Source: Phycisphaerales bacterium | Lineage (GTDB): Bacteria; Planctomycetota; Phycisphaerae; Phycisphaerales; SM1A02 | Length of the DNA stretch: 64,000 nt | NCBI GenBank assembly: GCA_009691915.1 | Contig: SIAD01000010.1 | Span: 1 to 64,000 of the forward strand | Direction: 5' to 3' | Shown: piece by piece, positions 28,273 through 37,425 of the stretch | Layout of the letters: the number at the start of each line of letters is the position of its first letter | Position numbering within the stretch: the stretch's first letter is position 1 | Notes under the pieces: model-generated | What the model was told of the DNA's origin: nothing | Seen by the model: only the letters and a program-made list of their open reading frames with translations | Databases searched by the model: none | Translations under genes and position numbers: made by a program

Positions 28273-28508
28273 AAATGAAACTTCTCGCGACTTGTGCGCC
28301 TGCGCTGCCAGCGACTGTCGGAATTCGCTTGCGCAGGTCGGTTTTTGTGGCAGATTACTGGCACGCACCCTGAAATGGTGCGTAGTGTCTCTTGAAGCAG
28401 GATTGGTTGTAAGGGGTATTTCGGCAGCCACTCGCCTCTCTATTGTTTCGTTATTGTTTCGCTAATCCAAGATTCGAACCCCCCACCACTCTCAGAGGCA
28501 CTCTCCGA
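28273..28508. promoter_or_regulatory. Divergent control region, smpB / secreted metallopeptidase
   Basis: This 236-base gap is richer in A and T than its surroundings. It holds a perfect 7-bp inverted repeat ACGCACC/GGTGCGT (28363-28369 and 28377-28383, 7-base spacer) and, 58 bases further on, a tandem direct repeat TATTGTTTCG twice with 11-base period (28441-28450, 28452-28461). Both lie on the metallopeptidase side and look like operator material. A -35/-10 pair with good spacing was not found. Confidence 0.4.
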
Positions 28509-31328
28509 ATGACTCCAGCACTTCTTACTTGCGCTTACTACGTACTCACAGCGGCCACCATTTCGCTCCTTGCATCCGATGCACCAGCTCTTGCGCCTCA
28601 GGCAGTCGGCGCGGCCAGCAACAAGGGTGTCGCCATCGATGTTCCCGCCGCCCGACGGGACTTCTTCGACGCCAACCCGGCGGCCGACTTCTTCGAACGC
28701 GGCGGACGGATCACACGCGTCTTTGGACGCGCGTTCTCGACTGGTCGCAATCCCAGCGAGAGTGCTACGGGTTTCATCCGCGATCATGCCGATGTGTTTG
28801 GCGTCAAGGCCACCGACCTTGCACTCTTCGGGGCCTTCCCCGATGCGATTCACTCGGTCGACCTGCTGTGGGACGAAGTGAACGAGACCTACAAGTTCAC
28901 GCTCTTGGGCTACTCACAGGTTGTCAACGGAATCCCGGTGTTCCGATCATCTTTGAAACTCCTCATGCGCAACGAGAGCGGCTATCCGATGGTTCTGGCG
29001 TCGTCCGAACTTCGGGATCTCGGATCGTTCGCGGCGGCCGGGAGGCCGACCCTCGGAGACTTTGACCGCGCCGCATGGTCGAGTCAGGCCCTGCGCAATC
29101 TTGCGGAGGAGGCCACCGACGCGCAGCTGGTGATCTTTGCTGGAGTCGATGACAGCCCCGCGACGCCGAAGCTGGCGGTGAGCTTCATCGTCATCCGCGG
29201 TGTGCCCGGCTCAGGTCTCTCCAAGATGCTCTATGTCGTTGATGCGGCTACGGGCAAAGTGCTCTTCGAGGAAGAGCAGGTCTGCAATGTCGACATCACG
29301 GGTACGGTTCAGGGATACGCGACGACGGCGTGGGCCGCTGATGCGTGCAACCCGGAAGTCCCGATTGGTTTGCCCTACGCCACAGTGAGCTATCCGGGTG
29401 GCAGCGTGACCGCGAGTTCTACCGGCGCATTCACAGTCCCCAATGCCGGGACCGGATCGCTGGCACTCACCTCGAATCTCGCGGACGCAGGCAAGTACTT
29501 CAAGGTCACAAATAGCGCAGGCAGCGCGTCGACACTGACCGACACTGTTGCCAGCGGCGCGACGACGACATTCATGCATAACGCCGCCAACTCCGCGGAA
29601 CAGGAACGCTCGCAGGTCAATGCGTACCTCCACGCCAATGTCGCGCGCGACTTCATCATTGCGGCCAACCCGAACTACCCCACCATCTCGACCCAGCAGA
29701 ACGCGACGGCCTTCCAGATCAATGTCAATCTGGCGTCGACCTGCAATGCGTATTACAACGGCACCTCGATCAACTTCTATCTTGCGGGCGGCGGCTGCAA
29801 CAACACCGCCTTCTCGACGGTTGTCCATCATGAGTATGGCCACCACATGGTCGCCACGGGCGGAAGCGGCCAGGGTGCCTACGGTGAGGGAATGGGCGAT
29901 GTCATCGGTGTATTGATCAGCGAGACCGCTGTGCTGGGCGTCGGCTTCCAATCCTGTTCGACTGGGATCCGCAACGCAGCCAACTCCTGCCAATACGACT
30001 CGGCAGGGTGCTCGAGCTGCGGCAGCGAAATCCATGCATGTGGCCAGCTGCTCTCAGGGTGTGTCTGGAGCACTCGGACCGGCCTCATCTCATCCGAGCC
30101 GGTCAACTACCGGACGATCATTCGAAACCTCTCGTTGAACAGCGTCCTCCTCCACGGAGGCACGACGATCGCAGGCGACATCACGATTGACTTCCTGACG
30201 CTTGACGACAACAACGCTGACATCAATGACGGCACCCCGCACTATCCGGAGATCAGCTCGGGATTCACGGCCCATGGTCTGCCCGGTCCCGTGATCTCCC
30301 CCATCAAGTTCAACTTCCCCAGCGGACTTCCCACAACTGGCACGCCCTACGGAACCGTGTCGCTGTCGGTCCAGGTGGCGCCGCTCGGCGGCCAGCCACA
30401 GCCCAACACGGGTCGGATCTATTGGCGCACGGGAACCGCAGCCTTCCAGAGCGCGGCGATGACTCAGACCACCGCCAACAACTACACCACAGTTCTCACG
30501 CTGGGCGCATGCGGCACCTCGGTCGACTACTACTTCGAGGCCAAGACCACCACCAATCTTGTGGTGACCAGTCCATCGACCGCCCCCACGGCTTTCCATA
30601 GCGTGGCCTCGGGCTACGGCGAAGTGACGACTGTCGATGACAAGCTCGAGACCGCGACCCTTTGGACGGTGGGCGCAACCGGCGACGCCGCTACGACCGG
30701 AGTATGGACGCGGGTCGATCCCAACGGAACACTAGCGCAACCCGAGAATGACCACAGCGACCCTGGGACGATGTGTTTCGTGACCGGTCAAGGAACTGCC
30801 GGCGGCTCGCTCGGTGAGTCCGACATCGACGGCGGAGCAACTACGCTCACTTCACCGAGTTTCAACGGGACCGCCGTGGGCAACGCGACCCTCAGTTACT
30901 GGCGCTGGTACTCCAACGACACTGGCGCAAGCCCCAACGCGGACTCGATGCCGGTTCAGATCTCCAACAATGGCGGGACCACCTGGGTCCAACTGGAGTC
31001 GGTCAGCGCGAATACGAATGCGTGGATCTTCAAGAGCTTCCGGATTGCAGATTTCGTCACTCCGACTGCGACCATGAAGGTGCGGTTTGTGGCCAGCGAT
31101 CTCGGCAGCGGTTCAGTCGTCGAAGCCGGCGTTGATGATCTCAAGGTCGCAGGTTTCAACTGCACGGCGCCGTACGAGCCAGCCGACGTCAATCAGGACG
31201 GCGTCGTCGATGGACTTGACCTCGGGATGGTTCTGAGCGCCTGGGGCACCCCCGGCGGCGACATCAATGGGAGCGGCACCACTGACGGGGCCGACCTAAC
31301 TGTCCTCTTCTCCGCTTGGAGCGGCTGA
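28509..31328 (+). CDS. Secreted gluzincin metallopeptidase with dockerin-like C-terminus
   Basis: Large exported zinc peptidase, 939 residues from the ATG at 28509. Order: signal peptide (MTPALLTCAYYVLTAATISL), FTP/propeptide-like region (about 60-250), a beta domain, then the zinc site HEYGH (His441, Glu442, His445) and GEGMGD (Glu460), which resembles the GEGWSD part of fungalysin (M36) peptidases but with shorter spacing. Cys-rich segment 480-525, then beta-sandwich domains and a MAM/jelly-roll-like part. The end, DVNQDGVVDGLDLG and DINGSGTTDGADL with SAWG/SAWSG, is the two-EF-hand dockerin-like tail of Phycisphaerae exported proteins. The frame is open 22 codons earlier, without signal-like sequence. 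Confidence 0.88.
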   Translation: MTPALLTCAYYVLTAATISLLASDAPALAPQAVGAASNKGVAIDVPAARRDFFDANPAADFFERGGRITRVFGRAFSTGRNPSESATGFIRDHADVFGVKATDLALFGAFPDAIHSVDLLWDEVNETYKFTLLGYSQVVNGIPVFRSSLKLLMRNESGYPMVLASSELRDLGSFAAAGRPTLGDFDRAAWSSQALRNLAEEATDAQLVIFAGVDDSPATPKLAVSFIVIRGVPGSGLSKMLYVVDAATGKVLFEEEQVCNVDITGTVQGYATTAWAADACNPEVPIGLPYATVSYPGGSVTASSTGAFTVPNAGTGSLALTSNLADAGKYFKVTNSAGSASTLTDTVASGATTTFMHNAANSAEQERSQVNAYLHANVARDFIIAANPNYPTISTQQNATAFQINVNLASTCNAYYNGTSINFYLAGGGCNNTAFSTVVHHEYGHHMVATGGSGQGAYGEGMGDVIGVLISETAVLGVGFQSCSTGIRNAANSCQYDSAGCSSCGSEIHACGQLLSGCVWSTRTGLISSEPVNYRTIIRNLSLNSVLLHGGTTIAGDITIDFLTLDDNNADINDGTPHYPEISSGFTAHGLPGPVISPIKFNFPSGLPTTGTPYGTVSLSVQVAPLGGQPQPNTGRIYWRTGTAAFQSAAMTQTTANNYTTVLTLGACGTSVDYYFEAKTTTNLVVTSPSTAPTAFHSVASGYGEVTTVDDKLETATLWTVGATGDAATTGVWTRVDPNGTLAQPENDHSDPGTMCFVTGQGTAGGSLGESDIDGGATTLTSPSFNGTAVGNATLSYWRWYSNDTGASPNADSMPVQISNNGGTTWVQLESVSANTNAWIFKSFRIADFVTPTATMKVRFVASDLGSGSVVEAGVDDLKVAGFNCTAPYEPADVNQDGVVDGLDLGMVLSAWGTPGGDINGSGTTDGADLTVLFSAWSG

Positions 31329-33214: not shown

Positions 33215-34039
33215 CTACGCGCGCGAGCGCCTGCGGTGAATGGTGGCGGCGTCTGCGAACGCCTCCCGCTTTAGGGCTGCAAGCTCTGCCGTTGTGAGAT
33301 CGCGCCACGCGCCGACAGCAAGCCCCTTGAGCCTGAGCGGTCCCATGCGAATCCTTCGAAGCCGCTTCACAGGATGGCCAAGATCGGCCATCATCCTTCT
33401 GATCTGTCGGCTTCGACCTTCGCGCAATTCCATGGTGAGCAGCGTGCGTGATCCATCGCGGCGGAGGATTCGCAAGTGCGCCTTCCTTGTGCGGGATCCG
33501 GGCTCATCCGCCTCAGGAAGAAAGATCCCTTCTTCGAGCCTCGAGATGTCGGCGGGTCGCACCCCGCCCTTCACCAGCACCTCGTACTCCTTGTGCACTT
33601 CGTAGCGCGGATGGGTGAGGCGATTGGCGAGCTCGCCGTCATTTGTCAGGAGGAGCAGCCCGCTGGAATCCATGTCCAGTCGACCCACCCCGTAGAGGCG
33701 CGCTTTCGATGGATGGTCGACGAGGCCCGACGCGAGCCTTCGTCCCTCGGGATCGCTGTTGGTGCAAACATAGCCCGCCGGTTTGTTGAGAAGGACATAG
33801 ACAAGCTCAATGCTCCGCCGCAACGGCCGACCATCGACAATGATCCGATCTTTGCTTGCATCGACCCACGCGGGCAGCGCATCGACGACTTCCCCGTTCA
33901 CTGTGACGAGCCCCTGCACGATCATCGCCTCGGCGGCGCGGCGCGACGCAACTCCGGCATCGGCGAGGAGTTTCTGGATCCGCACACCTCGAGAAGCATC
34001 GGTGTATGAGTGGCGTGGCTTGGGGCTTCGACGGGCCAT
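33215..34039 (-). CDS. rluB: RsuA/RluB-family rRNA pseudouridine synthase
   Basis: Isomerises uridine in rRNA. 274 residues: N-terminal S4 RNA-binding domain (RIQKLLADAGVASRRAAEAMI, VNGEVV) and a catalytic domain with YVLLNKPAGYVCT, the active-site motif GRLDMDSSGLLLLTNDGEL carrying the nucleophile Asp, HKEYEVLVKG and LREGRSRQIRRMMADLGHPV. The basic C-terminal tail fits RluB-type enzymes, which modify the peptidyl-transferase loop of 23S rRNA; RsuA or RluE specificity cannot be excluded. Divergent from the repeat-protein gene. Confidence 0.9.
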   Translation of the reverse strand: MARRSPKPRHSYTDASRGVRIQKLLADAGVASRRAAEAMIVQGLVTVNGEVVDALPAWVDASKDRIIVDGRPLRRSIELVYVLLNKPAGYVCTNSDPEGRRLASGLVDHPSKARLYGVGRLDMDSSGLLLLTNDGELANRLTHPRYEVHKEYEVLVKGGVRPADISRLEEGIFLPEADEPGSRTRKAHLRILRRDGSRTLLTMELREGRSRQIRRMMADLGHPVKRLRRIRMGPLRLKGLAVGAWRDLTTAELAALKREAFADAATIHRRRSRA

Positions 34040-34081: not shown

Positions 34082-36127
34082 GTGAGTGGCACCACATGGA
34101 TCGCTTGGATGGCCGCGGCGATCGCCTTCGGAGCGGGTTGCACGACTGTGCACGGGCCAGCCGCGGCAGGGCCTGGGGATCCCAAGCCGGACGGAAGATC
34201 ACCCCTTGTCTTCGCCTGCTCCCGTGCGGATGCCCACCTCGATCCCACCCCAAACGGGGTGCTGCTGGGGAGATTGCTCGATGCCACTCGCCTGCGAACT
34301 CCCTACTCCGACACGGCGCGAGTCGTGGAAGCCGCATGTTCAGCGCCGCCCGGAGGAACGATCTCGGCGCCGATGAGTGCCGTTGCCAGATCACCGCTTG
34401 GAATTGCAGGCACTGCAGGAGCGCTGGCTGATGGGCTTCATGTTTCGAAGGGTGCGCCGAAAACTCTGGCGCCGCGCACCCCTCAGAGGCGCGTGGCCGA
34501 AGTTGTGGCCCGTAGCTTCGGGCTGGATCCTCTTTCGCTCTCGCCCTACCAAGGCAGCGTCCCCGTCCCGTCGGTGCAGGGAGCGATCTACGCCATGGAC
34601 TTTCTCCTCAACGAGCCGCGACTTCTACTGGCCCACGCACTCGAGGATCGCCCCAGTCCGCGCGAGTGTTGTGAGTTTCTGGTGTGGCTCGGCGGCGCCG
34701 TCAGCCCAAGCGCGGAAGACGCGGCACCCAGGAAGGAGTTCATGGCGCGTGCGCAGCGCGACATTTCCGGCAGCACGGGAGGACTGATCTTCGCCGTCGC
34801 GCAGGCCATCGCCCACATCGATGCGGAGATTGCCGTCACGGCGGATTGGGGATCGGCGGAATCAGAGGCCGTCCCCCCGGAACTCGCGGGCGCGGTCACC
34901 GGAGCAATTCTGGGTGCCGAGAATGTCCCGGGAATCGGCTGGATTGTTGTCGGTGGCCTCGAGGCGAACACCTTTGACATGTCGATCGTGTCTGGCGTCT
35001 TCGATCCCGGCGGCGACGACACCTACACATGGCGTGCGATGAAGACCGGCAATCAGGGGATCATCGACCTCGCGGGGAACGACCGGTATACCGGCAGTGC
35101 CGAGCATGGCCCCGCAGCCGGAATCTTCGGACTCTCCTTGATCGATGACCACGCCGGGGACGATCGGTACGAGGGCCAATCGTTCGCTTGTGGCGTGGGA
35201 GTCTTCGGAGCAGGCGTGCTGATTGATCGGGGCGGCAACGACCGGTACTCATGCCTGCGATGGGGACTGGGAGCGGGCGCATTCGGCGCCGGGTTCATCA
35301 TCGACGAGGCTGGGAGCGACTCGTACGAGAGCGGCTCGTATTCGCAGGGACTCGGAGGACCGCTGGGAGTTGGCGCGATCATTGACGGCGCAGGCAACGA
35401 CCTCTATCGAGCCGATGGCGTGGTGCCCAGCGTGTACGACACGCCTGGCGTTTCGTACTCGATGAGTCAGGGAGTCGGCTTCGGTGCGCGCCGTCTCTGC
35501 GCCGGTGGTGTCGGACTGCTTGTCGATGCCGAGGGTGATGACCGCTACGAAGGGGGCGAGTTTTCGCAGGGCGGCGGCTACTACTTCGGGTTCGGCGCCC
35601 TCATTGACGCAAGCGGCAGCGACCTCTACCGAGGCGACCACTTTTCGCAGGGATTCTCGGCGCATGAGGGCGCGGGGGCACTCATCGATCTCGAAGGCAA
35701 CGACACTTATTGGGCGACCATGTCGGCGTGCCAAGGCGCGGCGTGGGACTACGGCGTGTCGCTGCTTCTGGACGCGGATGGCGATGACACCTACCGAGGC
35801 GGAATCTTCTCTCAGGGTTCGGCGGCGAATCAGTCGATCGCCGCGCTGTGTGACCTCTCGGGGAGCGACCGCTACGAGGCGACGGGTCCCTCCGTGCAGG
35901 GAGAGTCGGCGGAGAACTCCTATCACTTCGCCGCGACCAAGGCGCGATCGTTCAGCGTGCTCGCCGACACCGGCTCGGGTGTGGACTGGTTCTCGTCGGG
36001 ACGCGCGCTCGGAGCAGTGACTGTCACGGGCGGGCCGAATGATCCATCGGCGCCCGCGTCAGCGCGGCTCTTCGGACTCGCCATCGACCTTCTTCGCCCA
36101 GAGGCTGCGGCTAGACTCGTCCCGTGA
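34082..36127 (+). CDS. Exported GxDxY-repeat protein, unknown function
   Basis: I do not know the family. Taken from the GTG at 34082 it has 681 residues: a membrane-targeting start (TTWIAWMAAAIAFGAGC, perhaps a lipoprotein with Cys near residue 19), a largely helical region to about residue 300, then about eleven repeats of roughly 26 residues (34,987-35,960) with consensus x(L/I)(I/L)D-x2-G-(N/D/S)-D-x-Y-x-G-x-F-SQG-x5-G-x-G. Examples: ALIDLEGNDTYW, LLLDADGDDTYRGG, LLVDAEGDDRYEGG. The period suggests a beta-solenoid. A start at 34010 is open but would overlap the divergent rluB gene. It overlaps the YihY-type gene by 4 bases (GTGA), first of a five-gene run. Confidence 0.7.
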   Translation: MSGTTWIAWMAAAIAFGAGCTTVHGPAAAGPGDPKPDGRSPLVFACSRADAHLDPTPNGVLLGRLLDATRLRTPYSDTARVVEAACSAPPGGTISAPMSAVARSPLGIAGTAGALADGLHVSKGAPKTLAPRTPQRRVAEVVARSFGLDPLSLSPYQGSVPVPSVQGAIYAMDFLLNEPRLLLAHALEDRPSPRECCEFLVWLGGAVSPSAEDAAPRKEFMARAQRDISGSTGGLIFAVAQAIAHIDAEIAVTADWGSAESEAVPPELAGAVTGAILGAENVPGIGWIVVGGLEANTFDMSIVSGVFDPGGDDTYTWRAMKTGNQGIIDLAGNDRYTGSAEHGPAAGIFGLSLIDDHAGDDRYEGQSFACGVGVFGAGVLIDRGGNDRYSCLRWGLGAGAFGAGFIIDEAGSDSYESGSYSQGLGGPLGVGAIIDGAGNDLYRADGVVPSVYDTPGVSYSMSQGVGFGARRLCAGGVGLLVDAEGDDRYEGGEFSQGGGYYFGFGALIDASGSDLYRGDHFSQGFSAHEGAGALIDLEGNDTYWATMSACQGAAWDYGVSLLLDADGDDTYRGGIFSQGSAANQSIAALCDLSGSDRYEATGPSVQGESAENSYHFAATKARSFSVLADTGSGVDWFSSGRALGAVTVTGGPNDPSAPASARLFGLAIDLLRPEAAARLVP

Positions 36128-37425
36128 GCCTCTTCAGTTCATCGAACCGAGGCTGGGTGATGGCACGGTGGTGCGTCTCGCACCTCGCCCAGGTGCGTGC
36201 CCCCGAGATGGCCGCGGCCCTCGCATTTCGCACTCTTTTCGGGCTGATTCCCGTGTTCTTTGTGGCCACGCTGGTCACCCGCAGCCTCCTCGGGGAGGCG
36301 TTTCCCAAGTTCGTTCGTTCGCTCGTCGAGACAGTGGGTCTCGGAAGCGTCAGCGGCCCCACGGACTCATCGACAGCGGAGGCGTCAGGCGCAGCGTCGG
36401 CCACCACAGTGCCGCTGAGCGCGTGGATCGAAGAGCTTGTCACATTCACCGGGACGCTGAATCTCTCCGCCCTCGGAGTCGTGGGCGTGCTGATCGTGCT
36501 GGCATCGGCTCTCTGGCTCATCGTCACGATCGAAGAGACATTCAATGTCGTCTGTCGTGTGACCAATTCGCGGCCATGGGTCAAGCGCGTCGTCGTGTAC
36601 TGGGCCTCGCTCACACTGGGACCGCTCATCCTGGCTGCGCTTCCACTAGCGACCAGCGAACTGCGCACCCTCGTGGCGAGCAGCGACACGCTCAACCGGG
36701 GATATCTGCTCCTTGAACCAGTTCTCGCCTTCGCGCTCCTGTGGGGGTTGCTCATCTTTTCGTACTCCGTGATCCCGGCGCAGCGGATGCACCTGAGCCC
36801 CGTCCTGATCGGCGCGCTCACGGGTGCGGTCGGGTTGGAACTCGGACGGAACTTCCTGGGCTTCTATATGGAGCGAGCGTTCACTGTGAATCGGCTCTAC
36901 GGATCGCTCGGTCTCGTCCCGCTGTTCATGTTCTGGGTGTACTCGATGTGGCTGATCGTCTTGTTCGGGCTCCAGGTCTCGTCGCTTCTGAACATTCTCA
37001 TGAACCGCCAGACGCGGCGGATCGCGCTCGCGGGCCCGTTGCGCTCGTTCGACCCCCGCCTCGCGGTGATGGCGATGGAGTGGTTCAGCGAGCGGTATCG
37101 ATGCGCTCAGCCGGGCCATCTGGCTGGGCTGGCCGACGCGATCGAGATCGACCAATCCACGGCGAAGCACCTGATTGACTGCCTCGCGCGCGCCGGACTC
37201 ATCATCCGCGTCGGTACCGAGGGGATGGTCCTTCCCGCGCGCCCGCTCGAACTGATCCGAATCGAGGACGCGCTTGCGGTCGGCTACGAAATGTCGTCCG
37301 ATGGCCGCCAGAGTTCACCCGGTGGTATCGTCGGGCGGCTCCGCGCGTCTCAGATGGAGAGCGTCGCGGGACTGACATTTGCCCAGCGGCCCACTTGCCA
37401 AGATCCGTCACGCATAGCAGACTGA
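36124..37425 (+). CDS. YihY/BrkB-family membrane protein with C-terminal winged-helix part
   Basis: 433 residues. The conserved first helix region (APEMAAALAFRTLFGLIPVFFVA) and later helices (LGVVGVLIVLASALWLIVTIEETFN, LILAALPLA, LLEPVLAFALLWGLLIFSYSVIP, LIGALTGAVGLELGRNFLGFY, LVPLFMFWVYSMWLIVLFGLQ) give about six membrane segments as in YihY/BrkB proteins, once misnamed RNase BN. After residue about 300 a soluble part (RYRCAQPGHLAGLADAIEID, ...LIDCLARAGLIIRV) looks like a winged helix. Role uncertain; possibly lipid or polymer transport. GTG start shares GTGA with the repeat-protein stop, implying coupled translation. Confidence 0.82.
   Translation: MSLFSSSNRGWVMARWCVSHLAQVRAPEMAAALAFRTLFGLIPVFFVATLVTRSLLGEAFPKFVRSLVETVGLGSVSGPTDSSTAEASGAASATTVPLSAWIEELVTFTGTLNLSALGVVGVLIVLASALWLIVTIEETFNVVCRVTNSRPWVKRVVVYWASLTLGPLILAALPLATSELRTLVASSDTLNRGYLLLEPVLAFALLWGLLIFSYSVIPAQRMHLSPVLIGALTGAVGLELGRNFLGFYMERAFTVNRLYGSLGLVPLFMFWVYSMWLIVLFGLQVSSLLNILMNRQTRRIALAGPLRSFDPRLAVMAMEWFSERYRCAQPGHLAGLADAIEIDQSTAKHLIDCLARAGLIIRVGTEGMVLPARPLELIRIEDALAVGYEMSSDGRQSSPGGIVGRLRASQMESVAGLTFAQRPTCQDPSRIAD

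Follow-up and report, generated by a model that had tools for sequence, protein, structure and literature searches.

The window analyzed here, a 64,000-nucleotide stretch of DNA from a Phycisphaerales bacterium, contains an open reading frame on the plus strand (34082..36127, GTG to TGA) that, by ORF calling and translation, encodes a protein 681 aa long to which homologs align along its length. We refer to it as the solenoid gene after the predicted fold of its product. The start codon is uncertain because an upstream GTG at 34010 is a possible alternative that would give a longer protein. Just downstream and on the same strand is a gene (36124..37425) predicted to encode a BrkB/YihY-type membrane protein (PF03631, E 3.9e-31), an adjacency that is conserved. 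The GTG start codon of this gene overlaps the stop codon of the solenoid gene (GTGA), suggesting that the two are probably co-transcribed. Upstream and divergent, on the minus strand, is a gene for an RluB-type pseudouridine synthase (33215..34039), assigned from PF00849 and PF01479 and from synteny. The order RluB-type gene, solenoid gene, BrkB/YihY gene was kept in 26 of the 80 loci that we fetched, including L057 and L072. The RluB-type neighbor is conserved, but we think that it is not part of the function of the solenoid protein. Outside the clade with this gene order the neighbors were mixed and shared no pathway, and no neighboring gene or fused domain names a ligand for the solenoid. 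The other ORFs of the window that were scanned are mostly housekeeping genes. An ORF of 961 aa at 28443-31328 has a dockerin-like C-terminal match below threshold (PF00404, E 0.003) and no further known domain.

The sequence-only reading had described eleven repeats of 26 residues with a strict core that included LID and FSQG. We found exactly eleven D-x-x-G-x-D-x-Y motifs in the solenoid protein, whereas the same protein shuffled 5000 times averaged 0.02 motifs and never had more than 1, so the eleven repeats are real. The first Asp of each motif is at D308, 329, 356, 382, 408, 435, 482, 509, 536, 564, and 591. The corresponding turns, assigned from the motif count and from family conservation, are encoded on the plus strand at 35003..35026 (DPGGDDTY), 35066..35089 (DLAGNDRY), 35147..35170 (DHAGDDRY), 35225..35248 (DRGGNDRY), 35303..35326 (DEAGSDSY), 35384..35407 (DGAGNDLY), 35525..35548 (DAEGDDRY), 35606..35629 (DASGSDLY), 35687..35710 (DLEGNDTY), 35771..35794 (DADGDDTY), and 35852..35875 (DLSGSDRY). 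The period held for most units, which are spaced by 26-28 residues, but not between turns 1 and 2 (21 residues) or across a gap of 47 residues that corresponds to one degenerate unit with an insertion. Likewise, DxxGxDxY proved to be strict, but LID and FSQG are loose; FSQG occurs only three times in the protein and QG is found in most units. The repeat register is also kept in homologs. At the DNA level the copies of the repeat have diverged, with identities mostly of 61-78%, and Tandem Repeats Finder reported no DNA array at the solenoid gene. We therefore rejected a recent tandem expansion of the DNA, and the divergence of the copies indicates an old protein repeat.

We used AlphaFold2 with a 70-sequence alignment of the family to predict the structure of the whole protein, with a mean pLDDT of 91.2 and a pTM of 0.91. 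The model has two parts. Residues 41-245 (34202..34816, plus strand) form an N-terminal helical domain with a pLDDT mostly above 90. When folded alone this domain had a pLDDT of 88.5, and its comparison with PDB structures gave no usable match (best VIA Z 3.9). It is poorly conserved, with 6-45% identity. Residues 262-671 (34865..36094, plus strand) are modeled as approximately 12-13 coils, mostly of three short strands each, with a pLDDT of 97-98 over most of the length and repeating short strands up to residue 669. This prediction leaves us nearly certain that residues ~262-671 adopt a beta-solenoid fold, as the earlier reading had proposed, rather than an unrelated one. That reading had passed over the helical domain, the conserved patch outside the repeats, the PDZ-bearing relatives, and the spread across the phylum.

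A Foldseek search of the model against the PDB returned nothing significant, with 3p4g ranked at the top (best E 2.5), and comparison with the BFVD viral library also gave no significant match. The structural match to 3p4g rests on VIA-align run on the Foldseek candidates, which gave a Z of 18.2 and an rmsd of 3.0 over 267 residues (spanning 268-671); the next row had a Z of 10.3. The TPS domain of HxuA and other right-handed beta-helices (4i84; Z 10.3) resemble the solenoid in being parallel beta-helices with several strands per coil, but they are without the Asp turn ladder and their repeat sequences are dissimilar.

The 3p4g structure is the Ca2+-bound beta-helix of a Marinomonas antifreeze adhesin and is built from 19-21-residue xGTGNDxuxuGGxuxGxux repeats (PMC3492233; PMC6891781). 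Since the nearest solved fold is Ca2+-bound, the likeness to calcium-binding turns of a non-RTX period that had been noted from the repeats fits. Region IV of MpAFP (MpIBP), the RTX adhesin of Marinomonas primoryensis from which 3p4g derives, shares with the solenoid a one-sided Ca2+-type turn with a GxD core and a single continuous beta-solenoid of comparable coil number (13 repeats in MpAFP). The two differ in coil length (19-21 residues in MpAFP, ~26-27 in the solenoid family) and in the start of the turn, which is x/G in MpAFP and D in our family. MpAFP region IV is embedded in a giant adhesin, whereas the solenoid of the window protein comes after a helical domain. The identity between the two proteins is 16%, with no sequence-profile match at E 5. 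Because MpAFP is the best structural match, we considered whether the solenoid protein binds ice in the same way. MpAFP binds ice through outward-pointing Thr and Asx that are arranged in a flat array (PMC3492233). Across 70 homologs, the Thr of xGTGND is replaced mainly by Ala, Gly, or Ser, and Thr is outside the eight commonest residues at this position; homologs also occur in anammox bacteria. We rejected ice binding as extremely unlikely, as the outward Thr-x-Asx ladder of MpAFP is missing in the solenoid family.

RTX proteins contain tandem GGxGxDxUx nonapeptides that form a parallel beta-roll, and they leave the cell by type I secretion using a C-terminal signal. In RTX turns, the ligands that GGxGxD offers to Ca2+ are carbonyls of Gly and the carboxylate of Asp (PMC6891781). 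The six equivalent residues in the solenoid family are D-x-x-G-x-D. Among 70 family members and 21 divergent paralogs, the Gly and the second Asp of the turn are 86-100% conserved at all eleven units and the first Asp is 81-100% conserved. Because the Gly and both Asp residues are conserved in every unit, a one-sided Ca2+ column along the solenoid is likely by analogy with RTX turns, and we consider it probable that the protein binds Ca2+. By analogy with the hydrophobic residue in RTX GGxGxDxU and MpAFP xGTGNDxU, the turn Tyr more likely points into the core than outward. The RTX beta-rolls of serralysins and CyaA (GGxGxDxUx) have in common with the solenoid the GxDxU half-turn, which is Ca2+-bound in known structures (PMC6891781), but they have another period and motif and two motif sides per coil instead of one. 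The GxD turns resemble half of an RTX nonapeptide and RTX structures were among the weaker fold matches, so we asked whether this could be an ordinary RTX protein exported by type I secretion. We regard this as very improbable: canonical GGxGxD occurs four times in the whole 80-locus set compared to 846 occurrences of DxxGxD, there is one motif per ~26 residues rather than per 9, the relatives carry N-terminal export signals, and the window protein has no RTX match in Pfam.

These N-terminal signals vary in clarity. The window protein has a short hydrophobic N-terminus (34082..34156, plus strand) that ends in AFGAGC-TT, with a weak lipobox-like site at Cys20. Its sequence, IAWMAAAIAFGAGC, is a weaker version of the signals of relatives, with Gly at -3 of the putative lipobox and no charged n-region when read from GTG 34082. 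Several relatives in the same genus have clear lipoboxes (LSAC, LAAC, LAGC, IVGC, LVGC), others in the genus have Sec-like signals, and signal peptides or lipoboxes are found in many relatives. Thus, the solenoid protein is very likely to be exported.

Searches of the window protein against Pfam-A, NCBIfam, and PDB sequences gave no significant match, with all hits below every Pfam and NCBIfam curated cut-off, in agreement with the earlier view that no named family fits. A profile of the 70-sequence family matched only the PDZ part and noise in the PDB, no record in the plasmid collection matched the solenoid protein, and we came across no description of the family in the literature searched. 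A distinct, Ca2+-dependent adhesin family (PMC12153261) was set aside as having beta-sandwich repeats. Homologs of the solenoid protein were present in 17 of 18 genomes of the same genus and in 38 of the 61 genomes of the relatives search, which included the window's own genome. A search of a phylum-wide sample recovered homologs in 109 of 292 Planctomycetota genomes. Homologs also occur in genome records titled as beta- or gammaproteobacteria, Lentisphaerae, and Acidobacteria, these being titles of MAGs. Four genomes tested in the family around genome G163 contain hydrazine synthase, which shows that this family includes anammox bacteria; a solenoid homolog is present in 25 of the 33 genomes of this family, and some genera are without one. 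There is good support both for the wide spread of the solenoid family and for its having no name in any library that we searched.

Beyond the window's clade, most relatives start with an export signal, which is followed by PDZ, a helical domain, and finally the solenoid. A custom profile detected PDZ in 39 of the 80 fetched loci, and Pfam (PF13180/PF00595) supports several members. Neither Pfam nor the custom profile found a PDZ domain in the window protein, and it is absent from its genus too. In this the window protein and its genus differ from periplasmic PDZ proteins, which the other relatives resemble in their N-terminal PDZ; the relatives have no protease domain attached. Eight loci, recognized by an MTFNIR motif and confirmed by Pfam in three cases, have an endonuclease/exonuclease/phosphatase-type (EEP) domain in place of PDZ. 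These ORFs (L063, L064, L065, L066, L067, L069, L070, and L106) thus join a secreted EEP-type domain to the solenoid; such a fusion is unusual and may be a clue to the substrate. The solenoid ORFs of L057 and L072 start with FG-GAP-like sequence; Pfam places FG-GAP and UnbV/ASPIC domains ahead of PDZ in L057, and in both loci (L057:3181-7218, L072:3415-7386) an FG-GAP/UnbV-ASPIC region is in frame with the PDZ-helical-solenoid protein. Distant paralogs from other Planctomycetota (L126, L127, L136, L139) have C-terminal HEAT repeats. When a tree is built from the solenoid, PDZ is missing from the window's clade, which takes in neighboring genera, and the EEP members form a branch of their own. 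Thus, the N-terminal modules appear to have been lost or exchanged while the solenoid was retained. Judging from genome size and from relatives that derive from lakes, the window's lineage may resemble streamlined freshwater planctomycetes such as the Nemodlikiaceae (PMC6461901).

Conservation within the solenoid is not limited to the turns. Four residues outside the repeat motif are near-invariant in the family and in the divergent paralogs, respectively: R470 (96% and 100%), Y500 (97% and 90%), H528 (100% and 95%), and D556 (100% and 100%), whereas identity over the helical domain is as low as 6-45%. P427 (93%), W555 (100%), and Q584 (94%) are conserved in the family only. According to the predicted strands, all of these residues (35360..35833, plus strand) lie in or beside the corner that joins strands two and three, in successive coils. 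H528 and D556 share a register, at -8 from the next turn Asp, and the third corner is variable in earlier coils. At the second corner there is a Gln ladder (Q422, Q463, Q496, Q523, Q551, Q578) that is probably structural. On this pattern of conservation the R470/Y500/H528/D556 patch is the best candidate for a functional site, and we lean toward the corner-3 site being functional.

These observations led us to a model that we hold to be somewhat better than even: an exported, Ca2+-clamped beta-solenoid with a ridge at corner 3 that binds an extended ligand of the envelope or extracellular space. The protein would be exported, in related species often as a lipoprotein, and its N-terminal helical domain would be followed by a rigid beta-solenoid, most of whose ~26-27-residue coils have three strands. 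Stacked at corner 1, the D-x-x-G-x-D turns of neighboring coils would hold a Ca2+ column, with the Tyr that follows each turn packed into the core. Corner 2 would be formed by a stacked Gln-Gly ladder. At corner 3, P427, R470, Y500, H528, W555-D556, and Q584 in adjacent coils would make up the functional site. The solenoid would display this site on the envelope for the binding of an extended polymer, for example a polysaccharide or a peptide chain; that the ligand is a polymer is plausible, and we propose it tentatively.

Some polysaccharide lyases and epimerases are built on beta-helices. In these enzymes the catalytic residues are in a groove on adjacent coils, and the conserved Arg, Tyr, His, and Asp of the solenoid are predicted to be on successive coils. 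The main rival to ligand binding is that this set is catalytic and the protein an enzyme that modifies a polysaccharide of the envelope or the extracellular space. The persistence of these four non-repeat residues on neighboring coils in divergent paralogs would suit an enzyme, as would the probable export and the fusion of several family members to a catalytic-type EEP domain. By contrast, no enzyme family was matched by sequence (Pfam, NCBIfam, PDB) or among the fold matches returned, and neighbors outside the RluB/BrkB clade are not consistently carbohydrate-related. We consider catalysis unlikely and favor ligand binding by the third-corner ridge. The same residues could instead serve folding or oligomer contacts in a rigid, Ca2+-stiffened rod acting as a structural spacer, adhesin stalk, or coat subunit. 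The closest solved fold sits in a giant adhesin (PMC3492233), freshwater planctomycetes have been seen colonizing particles (PMC6461901), and relatives contain protein-interaction domains (PDZ, HEAT, FG-GAP). Stalks vary in repeat number, whereas the unit number and position-specific residues are constant in this family, and the residues of the conserved patch are polar (R, H, D, Q) and are confined to a few adjacent coils. We thus find a purely structural role doubtful and prefer recognition of a ligand by the corner-3 ridge.

Ca2+-turn solenoids are already known; the DxxGxDxY motif, its period, the site, and the domain setting are without description in the sources that we searched. The solenoid adds to this design a motif and a period that are new to it, in a large family (about a third of the sampled Planctomycetota genomes) that is missing from the libraries we searched. 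Planctomycetota have unusual cell walls, and the distribution of the family suggests a shared envelope feature in this phylum. More speculatively, and with rather low expectation that every part will hold, this may be an undescribed phylum-wide family of Ca2+-clamped solenoids, common to streamlined freshwater planctomycetes and anammox bacteria, in which exchangeable N-terminal modules (PDZ, EEP nuclease/phosphatase, FG-GAP) accompany an Arg-Tyr-His-Asp ridge that serves as a new site for catalysis on, or recognition of, envelope polymers. The four-residue site is a specific target for mutagenesis.

Many Planctomycetota genomes hold several solenoid paralogs. The hydrazine-synthase-positive genomes (L141, G163 family) have one homolog each, mostly as a single copy. 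On an Acidobacteria-titled contig (JAFLBB010000020.1; L109 and L099) there are two solenoid genes ~60 kb apart, one of which reads as two ORFs and is possibly frameshifted.
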